Positions 39,245 through 63,906 of a stretch of DNA of 64,000 nt are shown piece by piece. The position numbers were made by a program, and so were the translations under genes. The notes beneath the pieces were generated by a model. The model searched no databases and was not told the DNA's origin. It saw only the letters and a list, made by a program, of their open reading frames with translations. The DNA lies in contig NZ_CP050177.1 of the NCBI RefSeq assembly GCF_011694815.1, positions 5,806,001 to 5,870,000 on the forward strand, written 5' to 3'. Each line of letters starts with the position of its first letter. Within the stretch, counting starts at the first letter, position 1. Origin of the DNA: Streptomyces liangshanensis (GTDB lineage Bacteria > Actinomycetota > Actinomycetes > Streptomycetales > Streptomycetaceae).

Positions 39245-40054
39245 GTGAAAAAGCTCTCCGCACGACGACGCCATCCGCTGGCGGCGGTCGTCGTCCTACT
39301 CCTCGCGCTGGCGGCCACCGGGGGGCTGTACGCGGCGTTCGCGCCCGCGGACAAGGCGCAGGCCGACACCACCTCCCAGTCACTCGCCATCGAGGAGGGC
39401 AAGAAGATCTACTCCGTGGGCTGCGCGAGCTGCCACGGGGTCGGCGGCCAGGGCAGCAGCGACGGTCCCTCCCTGGTGGGCGTCGGCGCGGCCGCCGTGG
39501 ACTTCCAGGTCGGCACCGGCCGCATGCCGGCCCAGCAGCCCGGCGCGCAGGTGCCGAAGAAGAAGGTCATCTACTCGCAGAAGGAGATCGACCAGCTCGC
39601 CGCGTACGTCGCGTCCCTCGGCGCCGGACCCGCCCAGCCGACCTCGGAGCAGTACAGCCCCGACGGCGCGGACATCGCCCGGGGCGGCGACCTGTTCCGT
39701 ACCAACTGCACGCAGTGCCACAACTTCACGGGTGAGGGCGGCGCGCTGACACACGGCAAGTCCGCACCGAACCTGGACGGCGTCGACCCGAAGCACATCT
39801 ACGAGGCCATGCAGACAGGCCCGCAGAACATGCCGTCCTTCCCGGACACGACGATGCCGGAACAGCAGAAGAAGGACCTCATCGCGTACATCCAGGCGGT
39901 GAACGGCGCCGACTCGCCGAGCCCCGGCGGCCTCAACCTGGGCGGCCTCGGCCCCGTCAGTGAGGGCCTGTTCGGCTGGATCTTCGGGCTCGGCGCATGT
40001 ATCGCAGTCGCCATCTGGGTCGCGGCCCACACCGCTAAGGCCAAGAAGTCATGA
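39245..40054 (+). CDS. qcrC: Menaquinol:cytochrome c reductase dihaem cytochrome c subunit
   Basis: 269 residues. An N-terminal signal-anchor (about 11-32) is followed by two class I cytochrome c domains with haem motifs CASCH (60-64) and CTQCH (155-159), and a C-terminal membrane helix (about 243-262). Its two haems replace soluble cytochrome c, passing electrons directly to CtaC in the bcc-aa3 supercomplex. Start GTG 39245. The stop overlaps qcrA (ATGA). Confidence 0.96.
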   Translation: MKKLSARRRHPLAAVVVLLLALAATGGLYAAFAPADKAQADTTSQSLAIEEGKKIYSVGCASCHGVGGQGSSDGPSLVGVGAAAVDFQVGTGRMPAQQPGAQVPKKKVIYSQKEIDQLAAYVASLGAGPAQPTSEQYSPDGADIARGGDLFRTNCTQCHNFTGEGGALTHGKSAPNLDGVDPKHIYEAMQTGPQNMPSFPDTTMPEQQKKDLIAYIQAVNGADSPSPGGLNLGGLGPVSEGLFGWIFGLGACIAVAIWVAAHTAKAKKS

Positions 40055-41109
40055 GTAGCCAAGAGATTCCAGAAGAAGAGAACCTGCCGAGCGCGCAGGA
40101 GCCAGGGCACGGCGGCGCGGTCGAGCGGGCGGACGATCCGTTCGCCGACCCGGGACTGCCGGCGCATCAGCCGCGGATCCAGGACATCGACGAGCGCGCC
40201 GCCAAGCGGTCCGAGCGCGTGGTCGCCTTCCTGTTCCTGCTCTCGATGCTGGCGACGGTCGCGTTCATCGCGTCGTTCGTCGCGTTCCCCGTGGACAAGA
40301 TCGTCTACATCTGGCCGCTCGGGCACATCAGCATCCTGAACTTCTCGCTCGGAGTGACGCTCGGCGTCGCCCTGTTCTGCATCGGCGCCGGCGCCGTCCA
40401 CTGGGCGCGCACGCTGATGTCGGACGTGGAGATGACCGACGAGCGCCACCCCATCGCGGCGACCCCCGAGGTCAAGGCGAAGGTGCTGGCGGACTTCGCG
40501 GCCGGCGCGTCGGAGTCCGGCTTCGGCCGCCGCAAGCTGATCCGCAACACGATGTTCGGGGCGCTGGCGTTCGTACCGCTCTCCGGTGTGGTGCTGCTGC
40601 GCGACCTCGGCCCGCTGCCGGAGAAGAAGCTCCGCAGCACCCTGTGGGCCAAGGGCAAGCAGCTCATCAACATGAACACGCTGGAGCCGCTGCGTCCCGA
40701 GGACGTCGTCGTGGGCTCGCTGACCTTCGCCATGCCCGAGGGGCTGGAGGAGGACAGCGAGGAGTTCCAGGTGGAGATCGCCAAGGCGGCCCTGATGATC
40801 GTCCGTATCCAGCCGGACGACATCAAGGACAAGCGCGAGCTCGACTGGTCCCACCAGGGGATCGTGGCCTTCTCGAAGATCTGCACCCACGTCGGCTGCC
40901 CGATCAGCCTGTACGAGCAGCAGACGCACCACGTTCTCTGCCCGTGCCACCAGTCCACCTTCGACCTCTCCGACGGCGCCCGCGTCCTCTTCGGCCCGGC
41001 CGGTCACGCTCTTCCGCAGCTGCGGATCGGAGTGAACGGTGAGGGCAATCTCGAGGCGCTCGGCGACTTCGAAGAGCCCGTCGGCCCTGCCTTCTGGGAG
41101 CGCGGATGA
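40051..41109 (+). CDS. qcrA: Menaquinol:cytochrome c reductase Rieske iron-sulfur subunit
   Basis: 352 residues. Unlike proteobacterial Rieske proteins it has three membrane helices (about 56-78, 93-118 and 166-184) after an acidic N-terminal stretch. The [2Fe-2S] ligands are Cys278/His280 (CTHVGC) and Cys297/His300 (CPCHQSTF), with disulfide Cys283/Cys299. It overlaps qcrC and qcrB by 4 bases each. ErpA-type carriers would supply the cluster. Confidence 0.96.
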   Translation: MSSQEIPEEENLPSAQEPGHGGAVERADDPFADPGLPAHQPRIQDIDERAAKRSERVVAFLFLLSMLATVAFIASFVAFPVDKIVYIWPLGHISILNFSLGVTLGVALFCIGAGAVHWARTLMSDVEMTDERHPIAATPEVKAKVLADFAAGASESGFGRRKLIRNTMFGALAFVPLSGVVLLRDLGPLPEKKLRSTLWAKGKQLINMNTLEPLRPEDVVVGSLTFAMPEGLEEDSEEFQVEIAKAALMIVRIQPDDIKDKRELDWSHQGIVAFSKICTHVGCPISLYEQQTHHVLCPCHQSTFDLSDGARVLFGPAGHALPQLRIGVNGEGNLEALGDFEEPVGPAFWERG

Positions 41110-42737
41110 GTACCACGACGGACGAGACGACCACCCGCAAGGCGCCCGCCGGAGAACGGGTCGCCGACTGGGCCGACGGCCGGCTGGGCATCTACGGCCT
41201 GGCCAAGGCCAACATGCGGAAGATCTTCCCGGACCACTGGTCCTTCATGCTGGGAGAGGTCAGCCTCTACAGCTTCATCATCATCATCCTCACGGGTGTC
41301 TACCTGACGCTGTTCTTCCACCCGTCGATGAACGAGGTCGTCTACCACGGCAGTTACGTCCCCCTCCAGGGCGTACGGATGTCGGAGGCGTTTTCCTCGA
41401 CGCTGGACATCAGCTTCGACGTCCGCGGTGGTCTGCTGATCCGCCAGATCCACCACTGGGCCGCGCTGATCTTCCTCGCGGCGATGCTCGTGCACATGAT
41501 GCGCGTGTTCTTCACGGGTGCGTTCCGCAAGCCCCGTGAGGTCAACTGGCTGTTCGGCTTCCTGCTGTTCGTCCTAGGCATGTTCACCGGGTTCACCGGT
41601 TACTCCCTGCCCGACGACCTGCTGTCCGGCACCGGTGTCCGCTTCGTGCAGGGCGCGATCCTGTCCGTGCCGATCGTCGGTACGTACATCTCGATGTTCC
41701 TGTTCGGCGGGGAGTTCCCCGGCGGCGACTTCGTGGCCCGCTTCTACTCGGTCCACATCCTGCTGCTGCCCGGGCTGATGCTGGGCCTGGTGGCCGGCCA
41801 CCTGATCCTGGTGTTCGTGCACAAGCACACCCAGTTCGCGGGTCCGGGCCGTACGGAGAAGAACGTCGTCGGCATGCCGCTGCTGCCGATCTACATGGCG
41901 AAGGCCGGCGGTTTCTTCTTCCTGGTCTTCGGTGTGATCTCGGTTGTCGCGGCGATCGCCACGATCAACCCGATCTGGGCCATCGGCCCCTACCGGCCCG
42001 ACCAGGTCTCCACCGGCGCGCAGCCCGACTGGTACATGGGCTTCTCCGAGGGGCTCATCCGGTTCATGCCCGGCTGGGAGATCAACTTCTGGGGCCACAC
42101 CCTGGTCCTGGGTGTGTTCATCCCGCTGATCATCTTCCCGCTGGTGCTCGTCGCGATCGCGGTCTACCCGTTCATCGAGGCCTGGGTCACCAACGACGAC
42201 CGCGAGCACCACATCGCGGACCGGCCGCGCAACGCGCCGACCCGCACGGCCTTCGGTGTCGCCTGGCTGTCGTGGTACTTCGTCCTGCTCGTCGGCGGTG
42301 GCAACGACATCTGGGCCACGCACTTCCACCTGTCGATCAACACGATCACCTGGTTCGTCCGGGTCGGGTTCTTCGTCGTCCCGGTGGTCACCTTCGTCGT
42401 CACCAAGCGGTTCTGCCTCGGCCTCCAGCGCCGGGACGCCGAGAAGGTGCTGCACGGACGCGAGTCCGGGCTCATCAAGCGGCTGCCGCACGGTGAGTTC
42501 GTCGAGGTCCACACGCCGCTGGAGCAGGGCGACCTGTACAAGCTCACCGCGCACGAGCAGCCGAAGCCGGCCGAGCTCGGCCCGACGGTCGACGAGAACG
42601 GTGTCGAGCGGAAGGTCTCGCCGGTCGAGAAGGCACGGGTGAAGCTCAGCAAGAGCTTCTACGGGGAGAACACGCAGATCCCCAAGCCCACCGCCGAGGA
42701 GTACAAGGAGATCACGAGCGGCCACGGCCACCACTGA
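41106..42737 (+). CDS. qcrB: Menaquinol:cytochrome c reductase cytochrome b subunit
   Basis: 543 residues. The eight-helix cytochrome b core carries haem b ligands in IRQIHHWAALIF and YSVHILLLPGLML, and the PEWY-loop equivalent is QPDWYMGF, with Asp in place of Glu as in actinobacteria. About 120 hydrophilic C-terminal residues after the last helix (FCLGLQRRDAEKVLHG onward) form the actinobacterial extension. It oxidises menaquinol. It is the last gene of the operon, followed by a terminator. Confidence 0.97.
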   Translation: MSTTTDETTTRKAPAGERVADWADGRLGIYGLAKANMRKIFPDHWSFMLGEVSLYSFIIIILTGVYLTLFFHPSMNEVVYHGSYVPLQGVRMSEAFSSTLDISFDVRGGLLIRQIHHWAALIFLAAMLVHMMRVFFTGAFRKPREVNWLFGFLLFVLGMFTGFTGYSLPDDLLSGTGVRFVQGAILSVPIVGTYISMFLFGGEFPGGDFVARFYSVHILLLPGLMLGLVAGHLILVFVHKHTQFAGPGRTEKNVVGMPLLPIYMAKAGGFFFLVFGVISVVAAIATINPIWAIGPYRPDQVSTGAQPDWYMGFSEGLIRFMPGWEINFWGHTLVLGVFIPLIIFPLVLVAIAVYPFIEAWVTNDDREHHIADRPRNAPTRTAFGVAWLSWYFVLLVGGGNDIWATHFHLSINTITWFVRVGFFVVPVVTFVVTKRFCLGLQRRDAEKVLHGRESGLIKRLPHGEFVEVHTPLEQGDLYKLTAHEQPKPAELGPTVDENGVERKVSPVEKARVKLSKSFYGENTQIPKPTAEEYKEITSGHGHH

Positions 42738-51425: not shown

Positions 51426-52685
51426 GTGGCAGGTCAGCGGCGTATCGCCGGGGAACGGCAGAGCGGGCACCCGACCCGGCGGGGTGTCCTCGGGACGGTC
51501 CTCGGGATCTCCGGGGTGCTGCTCGTGCCCGGGTGCTCGGGGGCGCCGCCCGCGCCCGACGCCGCCACCCCCGCGATCCAGCGCGCGCTGGACGGCCGGG
51601 CCGCCGGGATCCTCGGCCGGGACGAGGACGCCTACCTCGCCGCACTCGACCCCGCCGCGACACGTCTGCGCGCCGACGCCCGCGCGGAGTTCGCCCACCT
51701 CGCCGGCGTACCGCTCAGCTCCTGGGCGTACCGGGTCACCGGCGTGGAACGCTCCGGCGCCCGCGCCACCGCCCAGGTAGAACTGCGCTACCGCCTCGCC
51801 GGGTACGACGACGCGCCCGTGTCGACCCCCCGGGAGGTGAGCCTCACCGAGCACACCGGCCGCTGGTACGTGACCGGCGACCGGCCCGCCCCGGACGGCG
51901 GCGCCCAGCAGCTCTGGCAGCAGGGGCCGGTACGGGTGGTACGCGGCGCGCACTGCCTCGTCCTCGGGGTCGGGCAGACCACCACCCGGCTGCGCGCGAT
52001 CGCGGCCACCGCCGACCTCGCCGTGCCCGCCGTGGACGACGCCTGGACGGGCGCCTGGGCCCACCGCGTCGTCCTGCTGGTCCCGCGCTCCCTCACCGCC
52101 ATGGCGGCCCTCCTGGGGGCACCGGAGGACGGTTACCGGGGCATCGCGGCCGTCACCACGGGGGAGACCGGCGCCTCCGGCGCCTCGCCCGCCGACCGGG
52201 TCACCGTCAACCCCGCCGCGTACGGCGCCCTCGGCGACTTCGGACAGCGTGTCGTCCTCACCCACGAGACCACCCACGTCGCCACCCGCACGGCCACCTC
52301 CTCCGCCACCCCCACCTGGCTCTCCGAGGGCTTCGCCGACTGGGTCGCGTACCGCGCCACCGGCCGTACCGCCGCCGAGATCGCCCCCGAACTCCAGCGG
52401 GCCGTCCGGCGGGGCGACCTGCCCGCCGCGCTCCCCGGCAACGACGCCTTCTCTTTCAGCGGCGACGCCGACACCCTCGCCCGGGCGTACGAGAGCGGCT
52501 GGCTCGCCTGCGAACTGATCGCCCACCACTGGGGCGAGAAGCGGCTGACCGCCTTCTACCGCGCCGTCGGCGCCGGCCGGCAGCCCGACGGGGCCGTCGA
52601 GAAGGCCATGAACGACGTCCTGTCGACCACCCCGGACGACTTCACCGCACGGTGGCGCGCGTACGTACGGGAACGCCTGGGCTGA
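51426..52685 (+). CDS. Lipoprotein with zinc-metalloprotease-like HExxH motif
   Basis: 419 residues. An N-terminal TRRGVLGTVLGISGVLLVPGC combines a twin-Arg pair and a lipobox, suggesting Tat or Sec lipoprotein export. A middle domain (about 45-165) looks like an NTF2-type fold. The C-terminal part has VLTHETTHVATRT (HETTH, an HExxH zinc site) followed by WLSEGFADWVAYRA, the Glu-containing gluzincin helix. It is probably a surface peptidase of unknown substrate. GTG 51426 lies close to a possible promoter and may be leaderless. Its 3' end overlaps the convergent GT87 gene by 44 bases. Confidence 0.82.
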   Translation: MAGQRRIAGERQSGHPTRRGVLGTVLGISGVLLVPGCSGAPPAPDAATPAIQRALDGRAAGILGRDEDAYLAALDPAATRLRADARAEFAHLAGVPLSSWAYRVTGVERSGARATAQVELRYRLAGYDDAPVSTPREVSLTEHTGRWYVTGDRPAPDGGAQQLWQQGPVRVVRGAHCLVLGVGQTTTRLRAIAATADLAVPAVDDAWTGAWAHRVVLLVPRSLTAMAALLGAPEDGYRGIAAVTTGETGASGASPADRVTVNPAAYGALGDFGQRVVLTHETTHVATRTATSSATPTWLSEGFADWVAYRATGRTAAEIAPELQRAVRRGDLPAALPGNDAFSFSGDADTLARAYESGWLACELIAHHWGEKRLTAFYRAVGAGRQPDGAVEKAMNDVLSTTPDDFTARWRAYVRERLG

Positions 52686-53916
52686 CCTCCCGCGCCCGCG
52701 CCGCCCGCCGCCGCGGCGCCGCCACCGTCCGTACCCACAGCCGCCGGCAGGCGATCAGGGCCGCCGCGACGAGCAGACCGTTCCGTACGGCCAGCAGCAG
52801 CACCCCCAGCGGGTCGCTCGCGACGACGTGCGAGAACAGCAGCGGGAATTCGAGCAGCGTCACCCCCGTGGCCACCAGCACCAGGCGCGCCGGCAGCACC
52901 ATCCCGCTCGTCCGCACCACCAGGCACGCGGCGGCCAGGCCCACCAGCCACAGCAGGTACTGCGGGCTGATCACCCGGCTCGTCGTGGTGAACAGCAGCA
53001 CCGCCACGAAAGCCGCGTCGCCCGGCGTGCTCGCGGGGAACTCCCGCGCCCGCAGCCGCCACACCACCAGCCACCCCAGCGCCACCCCGCTCAGCGCCAG
53101 CGCGGCCGCGCTCACCAGCCTCACGTACGGGCCGAGGAACTCCACCGAGCCGTAGTTCAGCAGCACCTCCCCCTCCCAGCCGACGTGCCGCGCCCCGTGG
53201 AACACGAGCGCCCCCAGCGACTCGACCTCCGTCCCCCGGTCCCGCTGGAACGTCAGGAACGCCAGCGCACCCGGCATCGCCGCGACACACCCCGCCGTCA
53301 CCACCAGCGCCGTCCCGCCCGCCACCGCCCACGCCCGGCGCGTCGGCATCCCGCGCGGCGTGCCCACCAGCAGCAGCGCCGGCCACACCTTCAGCAGCGC
53401 GCCGAACCCGGCGAGCGCCCCCTTCACGGCCGGCCGGCGCGCCCCGGCCACCAGCGCCGCCACCGCGACGGCCGTCACCATCACGTCGTACCGCGCGTAC
53501 GCCGTCGGCCCCAGCAGCGGCACCCCCGCCACCCACACCCACACCCCGCGCGCCGACCCGCCCGGGCGCCGGCCCGCCCGAACCAGCAGGCCGAGGACCA
53601 CCGCGTCGCACGCGCACGCCAGGACGAAGAACGCGGCGGCGTAGCCCAGGAACGGCAGCGCCGCCGGCGAGAGGATCGCGAGCGCGGCGGCGGGCGGGTA
53701 CTGCCACGTCACGTCGTCCAGCGGGTACGTGCCGGTCCTGAGCACCTCGGACCAGCCCTGGTAGATGACCGTGACGTCGCCGGTGACGTCGGGGCCGGGC
53801 AGGGTGACGACCTTGAACACGCAGAGCAGCAGCGCCGCCCTGGTGACGGCCCACACCGCGACGGCCGCCCGTCCTCCGGATCCCGCCCGGCCCACCCACC
53901 TGGTCATGGTTGTCAT
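52642..53916 (-). CDS. GT87-family polytopic mannosyl/glycosyltransferase
   Basis: 424 residues with about 9-10 membrane helices. The first loop has a conserved acidic region (GPDVTGDVTVIYQGW) and TWQYPPAAALAI, as in polyprenyl-phosphate-mannose-dependent GT-C enzymes of the DUF2029/GT87 family. It should add mannose or arabinose outside the membrane to lipid or glycan acceptors. ATG 53916 (MTTMTRW) is the likely start. It is divergent from the PimB-like gene by 75 bases, supporting a joint role in mannolipid synthesis. Confidence 0.87.
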   Translation of the reverse strand: MTTMTRWVGRAGSGGRAAVAVWAVTRAALLLCVFKVVTLPGPDVTGDVTVIYQGWSEVLRTGTYPLDDVTWQYPPAAALAILSPAALPFLGYAAAFFVLACACDAVVLGLLVRAGRRPGGSARGVWVWVAGVPLLGPTAYARYDVMVTAVAVAALVAGARRPAVKGALAGFGALLKVWPALLLVGTPRGMPTRRAWAVAGGTALVVTAGCVAAMPGALAFLTFQRDRGTEVESLGALVFHGARHVGWEGEVLLNYGSVEFLGPYVRLVSAAALALSGVALGWLVVWRLRAREFPASTPGDAAFVAVLLFTTTSRVISPQYLLWLVGLAAACLVVRTSGMVLPARLVLVATGVTLLEFPLLFSHVVASDPLGVLLLAVRNGLLVAAALIACRRLWVRTVAAPRRRAARAREVSPGVPVRTRATVR

Positions 53917-53991: not shown

Positions 53992-55146
53992 ATGGACAAG
54001 ACCCTGATCGTGACCAATGACTTCCCGCCCAGGCCCGGCGGGATCCAGGCGTTCCTGCACAACATCGCGCTGCGGCTGGACCCCGAGAAGGTCGTCGTCT
54101 ACGCCTCCTCGTGGAAGCGCGGCCGTGAGGGCGCGGAGGCGACCGCCGCGTTCGACGCGGAACAGCCCTTCACCGTCGTACGCGACCCCACGACGATGCT
54201 GCTGCCGACGCCCCGCGTCACCCGGCGGGCGGCGGAACTGCTGCGCGCGCACGGCTGCGCGTCCGTGTGGTTCGGCGCGGCGGCGCCGCTCGGGCTGATG
54301 GGGCCCGCGCTGCGCCGGGCGGGCGCGCGGCGCCTGGTCGCGACGACCCACGGGCACGAGGCGGGCTGGGCCCAGTTGCCGGCGTCGCGGCAGCTGCTGC
54401 GGCGGATCGGGGAGGGTACGGACACGATCACGTACCTGGGCGACTACACGCGCTCGCGGATCGCCCCCGCGCTGTCGCCCGCGGCGGCCGCGCGGATGGT
54501 GCAACTGCCGCCGGGGGTCGACGAGAAGACGTTCCACCCCGGCTCGGGGGGCGCGGAGGTCCGCGCCCGGCTGGGCCTGACGGACCGGCCGGTCGTGGTC
54601 TGCGTCTCGCGCCTGGTGCCGCGCAAGGGGCAGGACACGCTGATCCGGGCGATGCCCGAGATCCTCTCGGCGGTGCCGGACGCGGTGCTGCTGATCGTCG
54701 GGGGCGGCCCCTACGAGACCGCGCTGCGGCGGCTGGCGCAGGCGGCGGGGGTGGCGGAGTCCGTGCGCTTCACCGGCGCGGTGCCGTGGGCGGAGCTGCC
54801 GGCCCACTTCGGCGCGGGCGACGTCTTCGCGATGCCGTGCCGCACGCGGCGGGGCGGGCTGGACGTGGAGGGCCTGGGCATCGTCTACCTGGAGGCGTCG
54901 GCGACGGGGTTGCCGGTGATCGCCGGGGATTCGGGCGGGGCGCCGGACGCGGTGGTGGAGGGCGAGACGGGGTGGGTGGTGCCGGGGGCCCCGGCACCCC
55001 TGGCCGCCTCGGCGACGGCGGACCGCGTGGTGACGCTGCTCCTGGACCCGGAGCTGCGTCGCGCTCTGGGGGAGCGGGGGAGGGCGTGGGTGGAGGAGCG
55101 CTGGCGCTGGGACACCTTGGCGACCCGCCTGGAATCCCTGCTGTAG
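53992..55146 (+). CDS. GT4-family glycosyltransferase, PimB-like
   Basis: 384 residues. The GT-B fold begins LIVTNDFPPRPGGIQAFLHNIALRL, the typical acceptor-side motif of phosphatidylinositol mannosyltransferase PimB'. CVSRLVPRKGQD and the EGLGIVYLEASATGLPVIAGDSGGAPD block (EX7E) bind GDP-mannose. It would add the second mannose to phosphatidylinositol monomannoside on the cytoplasmic face. ATG 53992 is clear. Confidence 0.9.
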   Translation: MDKTLIVTNDFPPRPGGIQAFLHNIALRLDPEKVVVYASSWKRGREGAEATAAFDAEQPFTVVRDPTTMLLPTPRVTRRAAELLRAHGCASVWFGAAAPLGLMGPALRRAGARRLVATTHGHEAGWAQLPASRQLLRRIGEGTDTITYLGDYTRSRIAPALSPAAAARMVQLPPGVDEKTFHPGSGGAEVRARLGLTDRPVVVCVSRLVPRKGQDTLIRAMPEILSAVPDAVLLIVGGGPYETALRRLAQAAGVAESVRFTGAVPWAELPAHFGAGDVFAMPCRTRRGGLDVEGLGIVYLEASATGLPVIAGDSGGAPDAVVEGETGWVVPGAPAPLAASATADRVVTLLLDPELRRALGERGRAWVEERWRWDTLATRLESLL

Positions 55147-55255: not shown

Positions 55256-57052
55256 CTACGCGGAGTAGATCGCTTCGATCTCGGAGGCGAACTCCGCCAC
55301 CACCACGTTCCGCTTCAGCTTCATCGACGGCGTCACATGCCCCCCGGCCTCCGTGAACTGCGAAGCCAGAATCCGGAACTTCCGCACCGACTCCGCCTTC
55401 GACACCGCCGCGTTCCCCTCGTCCACCGCCCGCTGGATCTCCGCCAGCAGGTCCGCGTCGAGGCGCAGCGTCGCCGCCGTGGACCCCGCGGGCTTGCCGT
55501 GGTCCGCCGCCCAGCGCGTCAGGAACTCCTCGTCCAGCGTGATCAGCGCCCCCACGAAGGGCCGCCCGTCGCCCACGACCATGCACTCCGCGACCAGCGC
55601 GTGCGCGCGGATGCGGTCCTCGATGACCGCGGGGGCGACGTTCTTGCCGCCCGCCGTCACCAGGATCTCCTTCTTGCGGCCGGTGATCGCGAGATACCCG
55701 TCCTCGTCCAGCGTGCCGATGTCACCCGTGTGGAACCACCCGTCGGCCAGCGCCTCCGCCGTCGCGGCCTTGTTGTTCCAGTACTCCGTGAACAGGTGCT
55801 CGCCGTGCAGCAGCACCTCCCCGTCGTCCGCGATCCGTACGACCGACCCCGGCAGCGGCTGCCCGACCGTGCCGATCTTCTGCCGGTCCCACGGGTTGAA
55901 CGACGTCGCCGCGCAGGACTCCGTCAGGCCGTACCCCTCCAGGACGGTGAACCCGACCCCCCGGAAGAAGTGCCCGAGCCGCTCGCCCAGCGGCGCGCCG
56001 CCGGAGATCGCGTACTCCCCGGCCCCGCCCAGCACCGCGCGGAGCTTGCGGTAGACGAGCCTGTCGAAGATCGTGTGCTTGATCCGCAGGCCCAGCGAGG
56101 GACCCCGGGGTGTGGACAGCGCGCGGCTGTACGCGATCGCCGTCCCCGCGGCCCGGTCGAAGATCTTGCCCTTGCCGTCGGCCCGGGCCTTCGCCCGCGC
56201 CCCGTTGTAGACCTTCTCGAACACGCGCGGCACCCCGAGGATCAGCGTCGGCCGGAACGCCGCCAGCTCCTCGGTGAGGTTCTTGATGTCGGGGACGCAG
56301 CCCAGCTTGATCGGCGCCATCACGGCCGCCACCTCGACCAGCCGCCCGAAGACGTGCGCGGCGGGCAGGAAGAGCAGGATCGAGCATTCACCCGTACGGA
56401 ACAGCGGCTTGAGCCGCTCCACCGCGTTCCCGCACTCGGCGAAGAACGCGCGGTGGGTGAGGACACAGCCCTTGGGGCGGCCGGTGGTGCCCGAGGTGTA
56501 GACGATCGTCGCCGGGTCGTCGGCCTTCGCGGACGACGCGCGCGCGTCGACGGTCGCGTCGTCGATCCCCGCCCCGCTCGCGACCAGCGCCTCCACGCCG
56601 CCCTTGTCGATCTGCCACACGTCCCGCAGCTCCGGCAGCGCGTCCCGGACCGAGGCCACCGTCTCCGCGTGCCCGTCGCTCTCCAGGATCACCGCGACCG
56701 ACCCGGAGTCGCCGAGGACCCACCGCACCTGCTCGGCCGAGCTGGTCTCGTACACCGGGACGGTCACCGCGCCGGCGGTCCAGATCGCGAAGTCCAGCAG
56801 CACCCACTCGTAGCGCGTACGGGACATCAGCGCGACCCGGTCGCCCGGCCGCACGCCGGCCGCGATCAGGCCCTTCGCCGTGGCTCTGATCTCGGCCAGG
56901 AACTGGACCGCGGTCACGTCCGTCCAGACGCCGTCCACCTTGCGGCCGAGGACGGCCACGTCGGGATGCTGGACGGCGTTGCGGCGGACGAGGTCCGTCA
57001 GATTGCCGTCCGCGGGGACCTCGTACAGGGCCGGAAGGCTGAACTCGCGCAA
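55256..57052 (-). CDS. Long-chain acyl-CoA synthetase (FadD15-like)
   Basis: 598 residues. Motifs of the ANL superfamily are present: P-loop IVYTSGTTGRPKGCVLTH, VFEKVYNGARAKA, GYGLTESCA and the hinge GYLAITGRKKEILVTAGGKNVAP. It activates long-chain fatty acids with ATP and CoA in the cytosol or at the membrane. The start is TTG 57052, supported by GAGGAG 11 bases upstream. Its place next to a PimB-like gene matches fadD15 in mycobacteria (recalled). Confidence 0.93.
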   Translation of the reverse strand: MREFSLPALYEVPADGNLTDLVRRNAVQHPDVAVLGRKVDGVWTDVTAVQFLAEIRATAKGLIAAGVRPGDRVALMSRTRYEWVLLDFAIWTAGAVTVPVYETSSAEQVRWVLGDSGSVAVILESDGHAETVASVRDALPELRDVWQIDKGGVEALVASGAGIDDATVDARASSAKADDPATIVYTSGTTGRPKGCVLTHRAFFAECGNAVERLKPLFRTGECSILLFLPAAHVFGRLVEVAAVMAPIKLGCVPDIKNLTEELAAFRPTLILGVPRVFEKVYNGARAKARADGKGKIFDRAAGTAIAYSRALSTPRGPSLGLRIKHTIFDRLVYRKLRAVLGGAGEYAISGGAPLGERLGHFFRGVGFTVLEGYGLTESCAATSFNPWDRQKIGTVGQPLPGSVVRIADDGEVLLHGEHLFTEYWNNKAATAEALADGWFHTGDIGTLDEDGYLAITGRKKEILVTAGGKNVAPAVIEDRIRAHALVAECMVVGDGRPFVGALITLDEEFLTRWAADHGKPAGSTAATLRLDADLLAEIQRAVDEGNAAVSKAESVRKFRILASQFTEAGGHVTPSMKLKRNVVVAEFASEIEAIYSA

Positions 57053-57333: not shown

Positions 57334-58122
57334 ATGCGAGGTGCGCGAATGGGTACACGAGTCCACGTGGTCAGCGACGTGCACGGGAACACCCGGGCCC
57401 TCGCCACCGCCGGCGAGGGCGCCGACGCCCTGGTCTGTCTCGGTGACCTCGTGCTCTTCCTCGACTACGCCGACCACTCGCGCGGGATCTTCCCCGACCT
57501 GTTCGGCGTCGGGAACGCCGACCGGATCGTCGAACTGCGCACCGCCCGCCGCTTCGACGAGGCCAGGGACTTCGGCCGGGAGCTGTGGGCGACGCTGGAC
57601 GTCGAACCCTCCGCCGCCATCGAGGGGGCCGTACGCCGCCAGTACGCGGAGATGTTCGCGGTCCTCCCCACTCCTACGTACGCCACCTACGGCAACGTCG
57701 ACATCCCCACGCTCTGGCCCGAGTACGCCGGACCGGGCACGACCGTCCTCGACGGCGAGCGCGCCGAGATCGGCGGCCGCGTCTTCGGCTTCGTCGGCGG
57801 CGGCCTCCGGACCCCCATGCGCACCCCGTACGAGATCTCCGACGAGGAGTACGCCGCCAAGGTCGAGGCCCTCGGCGACGTCGACGTCCTGTGCTCCCAC
57901 ATCCCGCCGGACGTGCCCGAGTTGACGTACGACACCGTCGCCCGCCGCTTCGAACGCGGCAGCCGGGCACTCCTGGCCGCCATCCACCGTACGAAGCCCC
58001 GCTACGCCCTGTTCGGCCACGTGCACCAGCCTCTGGCACACCGGATGCGGGTCGGTGCCACGGAGTGCGTGAACGTCGGCCACTTCGCCGCCACCGGGCG
58101 CCCGTGGGCACTGGAATGGTGA
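57334..58122 (+). CDS. Metallophosphoesterase family protein
   Basis: 262 residues. Calcineurin-like metal-binding motifs are present: VVSDVHGN (D-x-H), LGDLVLFLDYAD, YGNVD in place of GNHD, CSHIPPDVPEL and FGHVHQPL. It hydrolyses a phosphoester of unknown identity. The ATG at 57334 is adopted; 57349 (MGTRVHVVSDVHGN) is possible. The upstream -10-like TAGGGT suggests a leaderless transcript. SRPBCC and ArsA-like genes follow closely. Confidence 0.88.
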   Translation: MRGARMGTRVHVVSDVHGNTRALATAGEGADALVCLGDLVLFLDYADHSRGIFPDLFGVGNADRIVELRTARRFDEARDFGRELWATLDVEPSAAIEGAVRRQYAEMFAVLPTPTYATYGNVDIPTLWPEYAGPGTTVLDGERAEIGGRVFGFVGGGLRTPMRTPYEISDEEYAAKVEALGDVDVLCSHIPPDVPELTYDTVARRFERGSRALLAAIHRTKPRYALFGHVHQPLAHRMRVGATECVNVGHFAATGRPWALEW

Positions 58123-58177: not shown

Positions 58178-58627
58178 ATGGCGGAACACACCAGTTCGAG
58201 CATCACGATCGAGGCGGCACCGGCCGACGTCATGGGCGTGATCGCCGACTTCGCCCGCTATCCCGAGTGGACCGGCGAGGTGAAGGAGGCCGAGGTGCTC
58301 CAGCGCGACGCCCAGGGCCGCGCCGAGCAGGTCAGACTCGTCCTGGACGCCGGCGCGATCAAGGACGACCACACCCTCGCGTACACCTGGACGGGCGACG
58401 ACGAGGTCAGCTGGACGCTCGTGAAGTCCCAGATGCTGCGCTCGCTCGACGGCTCGTACCTCCTCGCGCCCGTCGGCGCCGGCGACCGCACGGAGGTCAC
58501 CTACCGGCTGACCGTCGACGTCAAGATCCCGATGCTCGGCATGATCAAGCGCAAGGCCGAGAAGGTCATCATCGACCGCGCGCTCGCCGGGCTGAAGAAG
58601 CGCGTCGAGTCCGTCCCCGGAGCCTGA
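58178..58627 (+). CDS. SRPBCC (polyketide cyclase/START-like) protein
   Basis: 149 residues, a single helix-grip fold: ITIEAAPADVMGVIADFARYPEWTGEVKEAEVL at the start and a long C-terminal helix (KRKAEKVIIDRALAGLKKRVES). These proteins bind hydrophobic ligands or lipids in a cavity. The gene ends 5 bases before the ArsA-like gene, so they are co-transcribed; the same pairing is recalled for Rv2185c-Rv2184c. Confidence 0.88.
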   Translation: MAEHTSSSITIEAAPADVMGVIADFARYPEWTGEVKEAEVLQRDAQGRAEQVRLVLDAGAIKDDHTLAYTWTGDDEVSWTLVKSQMLRSLDGSYLLAPVGAGDRTEVTYRLTVDVKIPMLGMIKRKAEKVIIDRALAGLKKRVESVPGA

Positions 58628-58632
58628 CCCGT

Positions 58633-59844
58633 ATGCGTACGGTCCTCGTCACCGGTCCCGGCGGTGCGGGCCGTACGACGGTCGCCGCGGCCACCGCCCT
58701 CGCCACCGCCCGGAGCGGCGGCCGCACGCTGCTGCTGTCCGCCGACCCCCTCGACACCCTCCTCGGCACGCCCCCGGGCCCCGGTCCCGCCGACCCCGCG
58801 TGGATCAGGGACGGCCTGTGGGCCGCGCGCGTCGACTCCGGTGACCACTTCCGTACGGAACTGCTCGCCCTCCAGGAACGGGTCACCCCCGCCCTCGACC
58901 TGCTCGGCGCCCGCCCGCTGCGCGAGGAGGAGCTCACCGAACTCCCCGGCAGCGGCCAGTTCGCCCTGCTGCACGCCCTGCGCCGGGCCGCGGAAGGCGA
59001 CTGGGACGTCCTCGTCGTCGACCTGCCCCCGCCGCGCGAGGCCCTCGCCACCCTCGCCCTGCCCGAACAGCTGCGCCGCTACCTGCGCCGGCTGCTGCCC
59101 CGGGAACGGCAGGCCGCGCGCGCCCTGCGCCCGATGATGGCCCAGCTGGCCGGCGTCCCCATGCCCGCCCAGTGGCTGTACGACATGGCCGCCCACCGGG
59201 ACGCCGAGCTGGCCGCCGTCCAGTCGGTGATCGAGGACCGCGGGACCACCCTGCGCCTGGTCGCCGAACCAGGACCCGCCGGGGAGGAGGCCCTGCGCCT
59301 CGCCCGCGCCGGGGCCGCCCTGTACGGCCTGGCCGTCGACCCGCTCGTACCGAACCGGCTGCTGCCGCAGGACTCCGCCGACCCCTGGCTGGCGACCCTG
59401 GCCGCCCAGCAGCGCAAGAGCCTGGACGCGTGGCGCGGCACCGGAACACACCCGGCCGATGCCCTGCGCCCCGTGACCCACCTGGGCCGCGACCCGCACG
59501 GACCCGACGACCTGGCCCTGCTGGACACGGCCGCCGGCGGACTCGCCGTGGACCCGGACGGACCGGCCGGGACGGGCCCCCGCGAGGAACCCGGGCGGGT
59601 CGAGGACCGCCTCGCCGAGGACGGCCTGCTGGTCTGGTGCCTCCCGCTGCCCGGCGTCGCCAAGAGCGAACTCACCCTCGTGCGCCGGGACGACGAACTC
59701 GTCCTCACCGTCGGCCCGTTCCGCCGGATCGTGCCGCTGCCCTCCGTGCTGCGCCGCTGCACGGTCGCCGGGGCGGCCCTCACGGACGGCCTGCTGCGCG
59801 TCAGGTTCACCCCCGACCCCGCCCTGTGGCCGCGTTCGAACTGA
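58633..59844 (+). CDS. ArsA-like ATPase with altered Walker A motif
   Basis: 403 residues. The N-terminal region matches ArsA/Get3 P-loop proteins, but the motif reads GPGGAGRTT (8-16): the Lys of GKGGVGKTT is Pro9 and the catalytic Lys is Arg14. LLLSADPLDTLLG and VVDLPPPREAL stand for switch regions. The C-terminal ~80 residues (LVWCLPLPGVAKSELTLVRRDDELVLTVGPFRR) form an ArsA_HSP20-like beta domain. ATP hydrolysis is doubtful; a scaffold or sensor role is possible. Confidence 0.85.
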   Translation: MRTVLVTGPGGAGRTTVAAATALATARSGGRTLLLSADPLDTLLGTPPGPGPADPAWIRDGLWAARVDSGDHFRTELLALQERVTPALDLLGARPLREEELTELPGSGQFALLHALRRAAEGDWDVLVVDLPPPREALATLALPEQLRRYLRRLLPRERQAARALRPMMAQLAGVPMPAQWLYDMAAHRDAELAAVQSVIEDRGTTLRLVAEPGPAGEEALRLARAGAALYGLAVDPLVPNRLLPQDSADPWLATLAAQQRKSLDAWRGTGTHPADALRPVTHLGRDPHGPDDLALLDTAAGGLAVDPDGPAGTGPREEPGRVEDRLAEDGLLVWCLPLPGVAKSELTLVRRDDELVLTVGPFRRIVPLPSVLRRCTVAGAALTDGLLRVRFTPDPALWPRSN

Positions 59845-59912
59845 ACGACGTACCGCCGTTCGGGTACCGTCGGAGGTACACCCTTCCGCCGTCCCTGACG
59901 CAGGAGAACCCC

Positions 59913-60458
59913 ATGAGCGAATCCACCGAGCGCCCCGCCGCCGACTCGGACGCCTGGGCCACGGCGTGCGCCGAGGACCTGGAGGCGGAGAAGGCCCGCC
60001 GCCGGGCCGTCCACGGCCGCCCGCCCGCCTCCGCCTCCGAGGAACTGCGCAAGCTGGTCGACGCCGTCACCGACAAGGTCACCTCGCTCCAGAACCCGCT
60101 GTTCGGCATGGCCGCCCAGGGCGCCGTCCAGCAGTTCATCAACCAGGCCAGGGCCGCCGTCGAACCGGTCATCGAGCGCAACCCCGGCGTCTTCGACCAC
60201 CTCGCCGCCGCGGGCAACGAGCTGCTCGCCGCCTACCGCGACGCGGTCGAGGGCCAGGAGAGCCGCTGGACCAAGGGACCGTCCGACGGACGGGACGTAC
60301 CGCCCGCGGAGCGTACGGACGGCGTGAAGGGGTACGGAAACGACGAGCAGGCCTTTCCTGGCGCCCCGGGTGTCACGGACGACACGAAAAGCTCCGACGA
60401 CCCCACGGACCCCAGGGACGAAGGACCAGGTCCGGGCGGCCGCATCGACCTGGACTGA
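59913..60458 (+). CDS. DUF5304 protein, SCO2127-like
   Basis: 181 residues: an acidic N terminus, a helical middle (SEELRKLVDAVTDKVTSLQNPLFGMAAQG...FINQARAAVEPVIE) and a disordered Asp/Gly-rich tail. AGGAG lies before ATG 59913. In S. coelicolor the corresponding gene SCO2127 lies directly upstream of glkA and has been reported to stimulate glucose kinase expression and catabolite repression; the mechanism is unclear. The same arrangement here supports that assignment. Confidence 0.82.
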   Translation: MSESTERPAADSDAWATACAEDLEAEKARRRAVHGRPPASASEELRKLVDAVTDKVTSLQNPLFGMAAQGAVQQFINQARAAVEPVIERNPGVFDHLAAAGNELLAAYRDAVEGQESRWTKGPSDGRDVPPAERTDGVKGYGNDEQAFPGAPGVTDDTKSSDDPTDPRDEGPGPGGRIDLD

Positions 60459-60550
60459 ACAGCCGGTCCGAAGCACCGGACCGACCGGGCGGGCGCCCGC
60501 CCTCGGGTACGGTTGGCCTTAGCGGGGCACGACCGAAAACTGAGGGACTC

Positions 60551-61492
60551 ATGGGACTCACCATCGGCGTCGACATCGGCGGCACCAAGATCGCGGCGGG
60601 CGTGGTCGACGAAGAGGGCACCATCAGGGGAATGCACAAGGTGCCCACCCCGCAGACGGCCGAAGGCATCGTCGACGCGATCTGCGCCGCCGTCTCCGGT
60701 GCGGGCGAGGGACACCAGATCGAGGCGGTCGGCATCGGCGCCGCCGGCTACGTGGACGACAAGCGCGCCACCGTCCTGTTCGCGCCGAACATCAACTGGC
60801 GGCACGAACCGCTCAAGGACAAGGTCGAACAGCGCGTCGGGCTGCCGGTCGTCGTCGAGAACGACGCGAACGCCGCCGCCTGGGGCGAGTACAGGTTCGG
60901 GGCCGGGCAGGGCCACGACGACGTCATCTGCATCACCCTCGGCACCGGACTCGGCGGGGGCATCATCATCGGCAACAAGCTGCGCCGCGGACGCTTCGGC
61001 GTGGCGGCGGAGTTCGGCCACATCCGGGTCGTCCCCGACGGGCTGCTGTGCGGGTGCGGCAGCCAGGGCTGCTGGGAGCAGTACGCGTCCGGCCGCGCCC
61101 TGGTCCGGTACGCGCGCCAGCGCGCCAACGCCACGCCGGAGAACGCCGCGACGCTGCTCGGTCTCGGCGACGGCACCCCCGAGGGCATCGAGGGCAGGCA
61201 CATCAGCGCCGCCGCCCGCGCCGGTGACCCGGTGGCCGTCGACTCCTTCCGGGAGCTGGCCCGTTGGGCGGGCGCGGGCCTGGCCGACCTGGCCTCGCTC
61301 TTCGACCCGTCCGCGTTCATCGTCGGCGGAGGCGTGTCGGACGAGGGCGAGTTGGTCCTCGACCCGATCCGCAAGTCCTTCCGCCGCTGGCTGATCGGCG
61401 GCGAGTGGCGGCCGCACGCCCAGGTGCTCGCGGCCCAACTGGGCGGCGAGGCCGGGCTGGTGGGCGCCGCGGACCTGGCCAGACAGGGCTGA
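60551..61492 (+). CDS. glkA: ROK-family glucokinase
   Basis: 313 residues. The ATP-binding DIGGTKIAAGVVD (8-20), glucose-binding ENDANAAAWGE, EFGHIRVVPDG and the zinc-binding CGCGSQGCWEQYASG motifs are all present. It phosphorylates glucose and mediates glucose repression in Streptomyces. TTGGCCTTAGC upstream of the start may contain promoter elements. The neighbour upstream is the SCO2127-like gene. Confidence 0.95.
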   Translation: MGLTIGVDIGGTKIAAGVVDEEGTIRGMHKVPTPQTAEGIVDAICAAVSGAGEGHQIEAVGIGAAGYVDDKRATVLFAPNINWRHEPLKDKVEQRVGLPVVVENDANAAAWGEYRFGAGQGHDDVICITLGTGLGGGIIIGNKLRRGRFGVAAEFGHIRVVPDGLLCGCGSQGCWEQYASGRALVRYARQRANATPENAATLLGLGDGTPEGIEGRHISAAARAGDPVAVDSFRELARWAGAGLADLASLFDPSAFIVGGGVSDEGELVLDPIRKSFRRWLIGGEWRPHAQVLAAQLGGEAGLVGAADLARQG

Positions 61493-62495: not shown

Positions 62496-63134
62496 CTACA
62501 CCACCGCGCCGCGGCCCGGGTCGTCGTCCTCCTCGTCGCCGTGGCTCATCCGCGCCACCAGCGTGGCGAACCCGCCCAGGAAGCCGCCCACGCAGATCGT
62601 GGTCAGCCACCACGTCATGTCCCACTGGAGCAGCACGGCGACCAGCATCAGCACGGGACCGCCCACCACCCCCAGCCAGGCGAACTTCGACGTGACGTCG
62701 GCCTCCGGCAGCGGCGGCGGCTCCGGCGGGACGAAGTGCCCCTCGTCGTCCGACTCCTCCGCCGGCGCGTAGTCACGCGGGCCCGCCACCGGGGAACCCA
62801 CCCCGGGGGCGAAGATCACCGAACCCCCCAGCGGGGGCCTCACCTCGTCCGTACCGCCGTCCGCCCCGCCGTCGCGGGGCTGGTCCGCGGTCTTTTCCGC
62901 GCCGTTCTCAGGATGCTTCTCGGAACCCTTGTCCGGGGACGAGCCGTCCGGCTCCTGGCCGCCCCCGGTGCTGTTCGTCCCGCCCTCCAGCAGGGCCAGG
63001 CCGTCCACCGACTTGAACGGCTTGGCGCCCGGGGGGTCCGCGGGCTCGTCGCCGTACCCGGCCACGATCGCCGCCCAGGCGGCGTCCTCGTCGATCGGCT
63101 GCGGCTCGCGGTCCGCGTCATGTTGCTCAGCCAC
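62496..63134 (-). CDS. Acidic membrane protein, function unknown
   Basis: 212 residues. A long acidic, Gly/Pro-rich, probably disordered N-terminal part (about 145 residues) precedes two membrane helices (FAWLGVVGGPVLMLVAVLL and TWWLTTICVGGFLGGFATLVA) and a short acidic tail. AAGGGGAG lies 8 bases before GTG 63134, which overlaps the upstream esterase stop by 8 bases, so the two are coupled. Similar proteins are seen in Streptomyces; role unknown. Confidence 0.8.
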   Translation of the reverse strand: MAEQHDADREPQPIDEDAAWAAIVAGYGDEPADPPGAKPFKSVDGLALLEGGTNSTGGGQEPDGSSPDKGSEKHPENGAEKTADQPRDGGADGGTDEVRPPLGGSVIFAPGVGSPVAGPRDYAPAEESDDEGHFVPPEPPPLPEADVTSKFAWLGVVGGPVLMLVAVLLQWDMTWWLTTICVGGFLGGFATLVARMSHGDEEDDDPGRGAVV

Positions 63135-63906
63135 CGGTGGTGCTCCCCTTCTTCCCGACAGTCGGAGCGAGCCGGCCGATGAACGCGTGACTCTCCTCGA
63201 AGATCCGCTCCGCGTCATGGTCCAACGTCGCGACGTGGTAGCTCTGTTCCAGCAGGACCTCCCGGACATCCGTCGAGGAGACCCGGGACAGCACCCGGGC
63301 GGAGTCGGAGGGGGGCACCACATGGTCCCGAGGACTGCGCAACAGCAGCAGCGGCTGCGTCACCTGGGGCAGCGCCGCGTCCACCAGACGGAACAGCCTC
63401 CCCAGGGAGTAGGCGGCGTGCAGGGGCGTCCGGGTGTAGCCCAGTTCGACCTTCCCGTCCTTGGCGATGTCGTTCGCCAGCCCCCCGACCGAGGGGATCA
63501 CGTGCCGCAGCACCGGCAGCGCGTACGCCGCCGCCCCGTGCATCCGCACCGCCGGGTTGACGACGACGATCCCGCTGATCGCCGCCCCGTGCTTGGCGGC
63601 CAGCCGCAGCGTCAGGGCCCCGCCCATGGAGAGCCCGGCGACGAAGACCTGCGCGCACCGCTCCCGCAGCTCGCGCAGCTCCCGGTCCACCTCCGCGTAC
63701 CAGTCCTGCCACCGGGTGGACTGCATGTCCTGCCAGCGGGTGCCGTGCCCGGGCAGCAGCGGCAGCGACACCGTCAGCCCGCGCTCCGCCAGATACTCGC
63801 CCCAGGGACGCATCGACTGGGGGGAACCGGTGAAGCCGTGACAGAGGAGGACGCCGGCCTCGCCGCCCTCGTGGTGGTACGGCTCGGCTCCAGGAAGGAC
63901 CGGCAC
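63127..63906 (-). CDS. Alpha/beta hydrolase, carboxylesterase / monoacylglycerol lipase type
   Basis: 259 residues. LLCHGFTGSPQSMRPWGEYLAERG is the oxyanion/lid region. The nucleophile elbow is GLSMGG (Ser93 region). The acid is probably in SPRDHVVPPSD and the His in SYHVATLDHD. It resembles the Est30/Est55-like thermostable carboxylesterase family. AGGAG precedes GTG 63906. The natural substrate is unknown, probably short acyl esters or monoglycerides. Confidence 0.9.
   Translation of the reverse strand: MPVLPGAEPYHHEGGEAGVLLCHGFTGSPQSMRPWGEYLAERGLTVSLPLLPGHGTRWQDMQSTRWQDWYAEVDRELRELRERCAQVFVAGLSMGGALTLRLAAKHGAAISGIVVVNPAVRMHGAAAYALPVLRHVIPSVGGLANDIAKDGKVELGYTRTPLHAAYSLGRLFRLVDAALPQVTQPLLLLRSPRDHVVPPSDSARVLSRVSSTDVREVLLEQSYHVATLDHDAERIFEESHAFIGRLAPTVGKKGSTTGG

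Follow-up and report, generated by a model that had tools for sequence, protein, structure and literature searches.

The window considered here is a stretch of 64,000 nucleotides from the genome of Streptomyces liangshanensis, which consists of one contig of 7.7 Mb. It contains four genes in series encoding an SRPBCC (START-like) protein, an ArsA/Get3-like protein with a C-terminal alpha-crystallin domain (aCD), a small protein of family DUF5304 and the glucokinase GlkA (Glk in other genomes). We consider it fairly probable that this cluster represents a carrier of the Get3d type with a small adaptor docked by its C-terminal tail, in a form that is degenerate in Streptomyces; its binding, client and biochemistry are what we infer. 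A wider claim, of which we are slightly more doubtful than confident, is that the Get3d-type ATPases of many bacteria and archaea constitute an unrecognised carrier whose aCD accepts an adaptor tail in trans, resembling the IXI motif of small heat-shock proteins. Actinomycetota would add the SRPBCC protein, and in Streptomyces a pseudo-ATPase scaffold would keep the docking. The direct basis for both is gene order, the protein families, conservation of the tail, joint loss of the tail and aCD-ArsA, and decay of the active site.

The small protein encoded directly downstream of ArsA typically ends in a motif of the form I-x-[ILV]. Examples include VEHIDL, LERIDIA and LTRINID, and the protein in the window ends in RIDLD. 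Profile searches yielded 131 small proteins, of which 24 are from the window's genus. Scored as [ILV]x[ILV], the motif falls within 3 residues of the C-terminus in 96 of these and within 12 residues in 117. Outside the window's genus the corresponding counts are 73/107 and 94/107. Proteins of six neighbouring families, taken as controls with duplicates kept, carry it far less often (40/707 within 3 residues and 188/707 within 12), and shuffled tails satisfy the 3-residue rule in 8.7% of cases.

The association is also found where no profile for the small protein was used. A test by position alone covered 51 hand-listed loci, either outside Actinomycetota or in its early-branching classes, and accepted any open reading frame (ORF) of 45–200 amino acids (aa) with a tail within 3 residues of its end. 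Such an ORF follows 35 of 49 testable aCD-ArsA genes, compared with 13 of 206 other genes. Loci with a tailed ORF include those of Aminicenantes, Archaeoglobaceae, Thermoplasmatales and Dethiobacter. Twenty ArsA paralogues that match the ATPase part alone, and thus lack an aCD, were taken as a further control; none of the 16 that could be tested has a tailed neighbour. The aCD is detected by Pfam in 45/45 alignment rows, 38 of which are among the 51 loci, and in the remaining 13 loci it was judged from the length of the profile match. The contig scan comprised the best 80 of 493 relatives, so that sampling outside Actinomycetota is not systematic. One cyanobacterial aCD-ArsA locus (L156) was sampled, and no tailed ORF lies directly downstream of it.

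Within Actinomycetota, the genes that different loci carry between ArsA and Glk are homologues and form one BLAST cluster of 64 loci (6 of them duplicates). Most forms contain the motif CPxC. Outside the window's genus it is present in 82/92 small proteins beside SRPBCC-bearing clusters, mostly as CxxCPxC, although this tally counts the motif anywhere in the stop-to-stop ORF and may include a few chance matches. Other features of the family are a helix, HLxxAxxxLxAAxR, and a variable linker. Comparison of the Streptomyces and CPxC forms by hhalign gives a probability of 98% (E 1e-13), and the Pfam DUF5304 model matches 12/18 CPxC forms at E <= 0.01. Judged by these alignments, a wider and mostly CPxC-bearing family of small proteins is represented in Streptomyces by DUF5304. 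Five small proteins of other phyla align with the CPxC form at 93% (E 3e-7), their match to the Streptomyces form being weaker (41%, E 3e-4), and relatives of the Chloroflexi form carry the Pfam accession PF27253. No convincing relative of the CPxC family was found in the PDB (best E 0.12). We take Rv2183c to be the mycobacterial member of the family and the DUF5304 gene of the window to be SCO2127-like; deletion of SCO2127 was reportedly the subject of work by Tierrafria in 2016. Expression of osdR is described as requiring SCO2127 in the portion of that literature at hand. Rv2183c is tabulated as a 131-aa 'Trx-like' protein and grouped with Rv2184c in the relevant section of PMC3792642.

Losses of ArsA provide a second line of evidence, as the aCD-ArsA has disappeared from many Actinomycetes. 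Sixty Actinomycetes genomes were searched with the ArsA profile, and 52 were chosen as weak or negative. ArsA has been lost and the CPxC protein kept between SRPBCC and Glk in 11 clusters, and the tail is absent from all 11. In the seven of these 11 genomes that were scanned with the aCD profile PF17886, it finds nothing, or scores of 23–25 bits in ORFs of 159–187 aa. Five clusters (L276–L280) instead carry a decayed ArsA that is shortened or has a ruined P-loop but keeps the aCD end; PF17886 recognises this end in four cases (26–45 bits), and in L277 only the ArsA profile detects it. In these five clusters, as in L281 where ArsA is intact, the next gene is a small ORF with an end motif such as RWLPIID, MWIQLD or WVRVRR, which in L280 is too distant from the C-terminus to satisfy the 12-residue rule. 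Decayed ArsA genes (L250, L253, L256, L263 and L264; genomes of L276–L280) encode 270–352 aa, and in some the ATPase part is hardly recognisable.

These losses were also mapped onto a 124-row tree built from SRPBCC and Glk. Rows in which ArsA was present but no small protein had been detected were excluded from it, apart from three put in manually, as were ArsA-less clusters lacking a CPxC protein. On this tree the presence of ArsA changes 9 times. Of 7 pairs that are independent of kinship, the tail follows ArsA in 6 (median) and opposes it in none, and a sign test on the pairs gives a median p of 0.031 (range 0.016–0.125). Fisher's test of tail against ArsA, without kinship correction, gives 2.6e-9.

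Structure prediction provides some indication of the form that the tail may take. In a Nonomuraea locus (L093), ArsA and the small gene share a reading frame and are separated by a single stop; this stop was read as glycine to give a chain of 523 residues. The AlphaFold model of this chain, made with 51 rows, has a mean predicted local distance difference test score (pLDDT) of 80.4. Tail residues 518–520 are modelled as a strand at pLDDT ~70–74, after linker stretches below 50, and all other strands of at least 3 residues fall in ArsA. The model of a Chloroflexi chain (L117) has a strand at 473–475, with the tail at pLDDT 80 after a linker at 44. In both chains the tail is predicted to form a beta strand. 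In a Foldseek search with the Nonomuraea relative, the first solved fold is NosGet3d (8egk, 391 columns).

The ArsA-like protein of the window matches ArsA_ATPase (PF02374) with 99.4 bits over residues 1–265 and PF17886 with 68.2 bits, both above cut-off; it shares 99% identity with a protein named for S. liangshanensis. Most lineages show the motifs GKGGVGKT, STDxAHS and DCAPTxET. In the window, however, both lysines of the P-loop are replaced, by Pro and Arg, where most other sampled lineages have them intact. Both lysines are missing from each of the 24 genomes sampled in the window's genus, with Arg at the Walker position in 23 and Thr in 1. The Walker lysine has been lost at least three times in Actinomycetota, or four times with L065 (GSGGAGTST), which is a gap in the count. 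From the sequence it is likely that the Streptomyces protein has lost ATPase activity. This is no more than likely because NosGet3d, which also has Arg for the Walker lysine, retains slow ATP hydrolysis according to excerpts of the Get3d study (PMC10248533). Lysine and Cys motif have been lost together in two lineages, namely Streptomyces and the genus group f4/g65 (L064, L067 and L072), and the Cys motif is kept despite loss of the lysine in L054/L071 and L065. Joint loss of the two was considered as proof of their coupling and set aside, as it holds in 2/3 independent tree pairs and is not significant.

The order SRPBCC, ArsA, small protein and Glk is well conserved. When 246 Actinomycetes-class genomes were searched with the ArsA protein, 205 contained a match (counting paralogues), and 40 loci were picked by hand from these matches. 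The class sample consists of 63 distinct ArsA loci, of which 24 are from the window's genus and the rest were hand-picked to cover families; one locus without an aCD (L077) was excluded beforehand. Neighbours were counted by a stop-to-stop distance rule, under which a gene present at a greater distance goes uncounted. By this rule, 62 of the 63 loci have SRPBCC upstream; the small-protein family (by profile) and Glk lie downstream in 56 and 59, respectively. In the SRPBCC exception (L015) the gene is present further away, as is Glk in L045. Among 39 named Actinomycetota loci the counts are 34 for SRPBCC (2 untestable), 30 for the small protein and 34 for Glk; L120 (Actinobacteria), outside this count, has ArsA without the other cluster genes. 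A phylum sample of 53 loci gives 29, 39 and 30, with 9 untestable for Glk. Glk is missing from both fetched loci of the genus group f4/g4 (L059 and L073). Since it is present in sister genera of that family, loss is the simpler reading. PimB and FadD adjoin the cluster in Actinomycetes and vary in other classes, where SRPBCC, ArsA, the small gene and Glk often stay together.

The order is thus usual in Actinomycetes rather than a speciality of Streptomyces, and the glucokinase link is therefore ancestral there. An earlier note on this DNA, made from the letters alone, had expected the order to be conserved in distant actinobacteria, and these counts bear it out. The same note held that glucose control had been attached in Streptomyces, which does not agree with the position of Glk downstream of ArsA in many families. 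Among the loci sampled outside Actinomycetota, none convincingly places Glk next to ArsA. In L145 (Chloroflexi) and L146 (Dormibacterota), ArsA occurs with a tailed small ORF (ending in KIPIE and KIPID) and a ROK kinase ~5 kb downstream; with the kinase at this distance, an ArsA-Glk link in these loci was dropped.

The SRPBCC protein of the window matches a single solved chain by sequence (5z8o, E 1.5e-10). A natural fusion of SRPBCC, ArsA and HSP20-like parts exists (P0249, 540 aa), as a single sequence among the 120 matches listed. The earlier note had suggested checking whether the SRPBCC and ArsA-like proteins co-occur, and the answer is mixed: SRPBCC is almost always upstream of ArsA in the class sample, but it also persists in 33 of the 52 genomes picked for a weak or absent ArsA match (a 34th, at 22.8 bits, was not counted). 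Five of these 33 genomes carry a decayed ArsA. The idea that SRPBCC is an obligate partner of ArsA is ruled out by this persistence. SRPBCC lies within ~104 bases of Glk at 15 loci, and in 7 of them the two overlap by 4 bases, which suggests a separate link between SRPBCC and Glk. Because SRPBCC stays beside Glk without ArsA, Glk is its firmest partner, and its tie to ArsA is likely, though looser. SRPBCC adjoins or overlaps Glk, with ArsA and the small gene gone, in L247, L251, L252, L257, L259, L268, L269, L286 and L289–L293.

Taken as a whole, the cluster may be the form taken in Streptomyces by an old module centred on a Get3d-type protein. The product of the next gene would be small and helical, and its terminal I-x-[ILV] would settle as a beta strand into a groove of the aCD, in the manner of the IXI motif of small heat-shock proteins. 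The tail would thereby tether the adaptor, with its HLxxAxxxLxAxR helix and, in most Actinomycetota, its CPxC site, to the ATPase. In Actinomycetota the SRPBCC protein, which has a lipid-binding type of fold, is usually encoded immediately upstream of the ATPase and probably acts together with it. The complex would most likely carry a hydrophobic client, either a membrane-protein segment or a lipid. In Streptomyces the aCD and the tail remain though the P-loop lysines and Cys motif are gone, and for this reason the complex probably persists there, as a nucleotide-independent scaffold or holdase. Binding in trans, the groove as its site, the nature of the client and the roles of SRPBCC and of the cysteines are what we infer from these patterns.

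Other explanations of the cluster can be given. Vertical inheritance alone could have kept the core genes (among them PimB, FadD and Glk) together, with the small genes being unrelated. The neighbourhood does include unrelated core genes (NlpC/P60, PimB, FadD and the metallophosphoesterase), and SRPBCC stays beside Glk where ArsA is gone. However, ArsA and a tailed ORF occur together in Chloroflexi, Aminicenantes, Archaeoglobaceae and further groups, with none of the remaining cluster genes found beside them, and the tail vanishes when ArsA vanishes. Together with the one SRPBCC-ArsA fusion, this makes simple co-inheritance an unlikely account. It is somewhat less likely again that the tail binds ArsA outside the aCD, as a strand of the ATPase core or as a pseudo-substrate in the client groove. 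Assignment by DSSP would permit this, in that it shows the tail as a strand with no partner strand visible, but the lack of tailed neighbours at testable aCD-less paralogues and the retention of a tail-like motif beside decayed ArsA genes that keep their aCD end both point to the aCD.

The interpretation given in the earlier note, in which an envelope-lipid system of actinobacteria acquired glucose control in Streptomyces, seems the least probable. Genes for a PimB'-like GT4 glycosyltransferase, a GT87-domain protein and a FadD-type ligase do adjoin the cluster, and SRPBCC folds bind lipids. A phospholipid density is reported for AtGet3d in the available passages of PMC10248533, and FadD15 is listed with lipid-inclusion proteins in those of PMC10699116. 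Set against this, most of the Actinomycetes loci sampled include Glk in the cluster, and the envelope genes vary between classes while the four-gene order often stays.

A number of observations also weigh against a tail-docked adaptor. Both tail rules were set after tails had been seen, and the 12-residue rule is lenient, as 27% of control proteins pass it. Even so, 14/113 ArsA-bearing rows fail it (several have the motif further in), L028, L065 and L188 show no tail motif, and 14/49 aCD-ArsA genes, including the cyanobacterial one, have no tailed ORF downstream. The tail state changes 19 times on the tree. The tail-like ORFs beside decayed ArsA were recognised by position and not by profile. 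In 11 clusters the CPxC protein has outlasted ArsA and therefore has some other role too; SRPBCC likewise persists without ArsA and may belong with Glk, and its fusion to ArsA is one single sequence. The structural models are single chains of a probable dimer in which the strand that pairs with the tail is not visible, and the small protein of L117 has strands of its own that could pair. Finally, the aCD of Get3d shows no oligomerisation and is dispensable for client binding, according to the parts of PMC10248533 consulted.

The features of the window are collected in the table. Pfam and NCBIfam profiles confirm the order SRPBCC, ArsA-like, DUF5304 and glkA proposed in the earlier note, and its PimB-like, GT87 and acyl-CoA ligase neighbours are likewise upheld. 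The closest PDB match of the PimB-like protein is PimB' of C. glutamicum (3oka, E 9e-107), and the NCBIfam matches of the FadD-type ligase fall under their cut-offs. The metallophosphoesterase, missing from that note's list, is found in many related clusters and absent from some. The ArsA-like gene begins 5 bases past the SRPBCC stop and is separated from DUF5304 by 68 bases, with a further 92 bases between DUF5304 and glkA. DUF5304 itself matches PF17230 with 201.3 bits (gathering score 26.8). Scans of the locus for sigma-70 promoters and terminators found none, and such scans are uninformative in GC-rich DNA. Cytochrome bc1-type genes (cytochrome c, Rieske and cytochrome b by Pfam) lie ~15 kb upstream, at 39245–42737; such genes are presumably also near the corresponding cluster in mycobacteria. 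A reading frame at 62496–63323 has no Pfam or NCBIfam match, and its relatives (HYP275) recur 3' of Glk in many loci.

Table. Features of the cluster and its surroundings, in positions of the window
Feature	Position	Strand	Basis or remark
GT87-domain protein	52642..53796 (extent approximate)	-	PF09594, 49.3 bits
PimB'-like GT4 glycosyltransferase	53992..55146	+	Pfam PF00534/PF13439; start picked by eye
FadD-type acyl-CoA ligase	55256..57052	-	PF00501, 246.9 bits
Calcineurin-like metallophosphoesterase	57334..58122 (start uncertain)	+	PF00149/PF12850
SRPBCC (START-like) protein, 149 aa	58178..58627	+	PF03364, 59.8 bits; PF10604, 55.6 bits; both above cut-off
ArsA/Get3-like protein with C-terminal aCD, 403 aa	58633..59844	+	Pfam
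P-loop of ArsA-like protein, residues 8-16, GPGGAGRTT	58654..58680	+	GKGGVGKTT in most relatives
aCD (ArsA_HSP20), residues 333-392	59629..59808	+	PF17886, 68.2 bits
DUF5304, 181 aa, Streptomyces form of the CPxC/tail family without the Cys motif	59913..60458	+	PF17230
C-terminal I-D-L (I-x-L) motif, DUF5304 residues 178-180, RIDLD-COOH	60444..60452	+	Sequence reading
glkA, ROK-family glucokinase, 313 aa	60551..61492	+	TIGR00744, 435.2 bits (cut-off 260.35)

If tail docking is correct, the tailed small protein is a concrete candidate partner for the aCD of Get3d, open to a simple binding test, and the pairing could explain the purpose of this orphan domain. DUF5304 would gain a place in a putative complex, and Get3d-type proteins would be placed in actinobacteria. 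The Streptomyces cluster would also provide a case of a P-loop ATPase whose site is lost while a partner interaction seems to be kept. The earlier note had singled the cluster out as an undescribed system. In keeping with this, a literature search of titles, abstracts and some passages, with few subscription journals, turned up no description of it, nor of a tail or small partner of an aCD-ArsA, and the SCO2127 accounts in that material describe no partnership with ArsA.

Several known systems resemble parts of the cluster. BagA and BagB, which we take to be the Get3-like pair Rv3679-Rv3680, share the Get3/ArsA fold; the window ORF scores 38.8 bits for BagB and 27.4 bits for BagA (NCBIfam), far below cut-off, and both are of other families than the ArsA-like protein. 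The arsenite pump ArsA has tandem ATPase halves (~590 aa) and arsB, acr3, arsD or arsR as neighbours, whereas the window protein has 403 aa and one ATPase domain, and no ars genes were found among the neighbours scanned. Single-domain ArsA homologues confined to Actinobacteria, of 400–436 aa and consistent with orthology, form 'cluster 10' of Castillo and Saier (2010), where gene context gave no functional clue, as far as the passages seen relate (PMC2963123). Judging from size, phylum and gene, the window protein presumably belongs to 'cluster 10'; the aCD, the tailed neighbour and the decay in Streptomyces come from the present analysis and are absent from those passages.

The closest resemblance is to Get3d. 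The window protein likewise combines a domain of the ArsA/Get3 fold with a C-terminal aCD, reads as lacking CXXC, and has a decayed active site, as NosGet3d does with its Arg for the Walker lysine. It differs in that the conserved P-loop with the intradimer lysine is absent, both lysines being lost in Streptomyces. Get3d is a protein of plants, cyanobacteria and green bacteria, whereas here aCD-ArsA proteins occur in non-phototrophs and are accompanied by a small tailed protein, joined in Actinomycetota by SRPBCC. In the sections of PMC10248533 available, the role of the Get3d aCD is called unclear, and its partners, none of them named, are said to await discovery. For the tail, the nearest parallel is with the small heat-shock proteins, where the IXI motif docks in an aCD at the beta4/beta8 groove (PMC3638399, from the part at hand). 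Both have a C-terminal I-x-[ILV], with an aCD as receptor there and as putative receptor here, but the tail described here would be supplied in trans, by a distinct small protein with a different fold.

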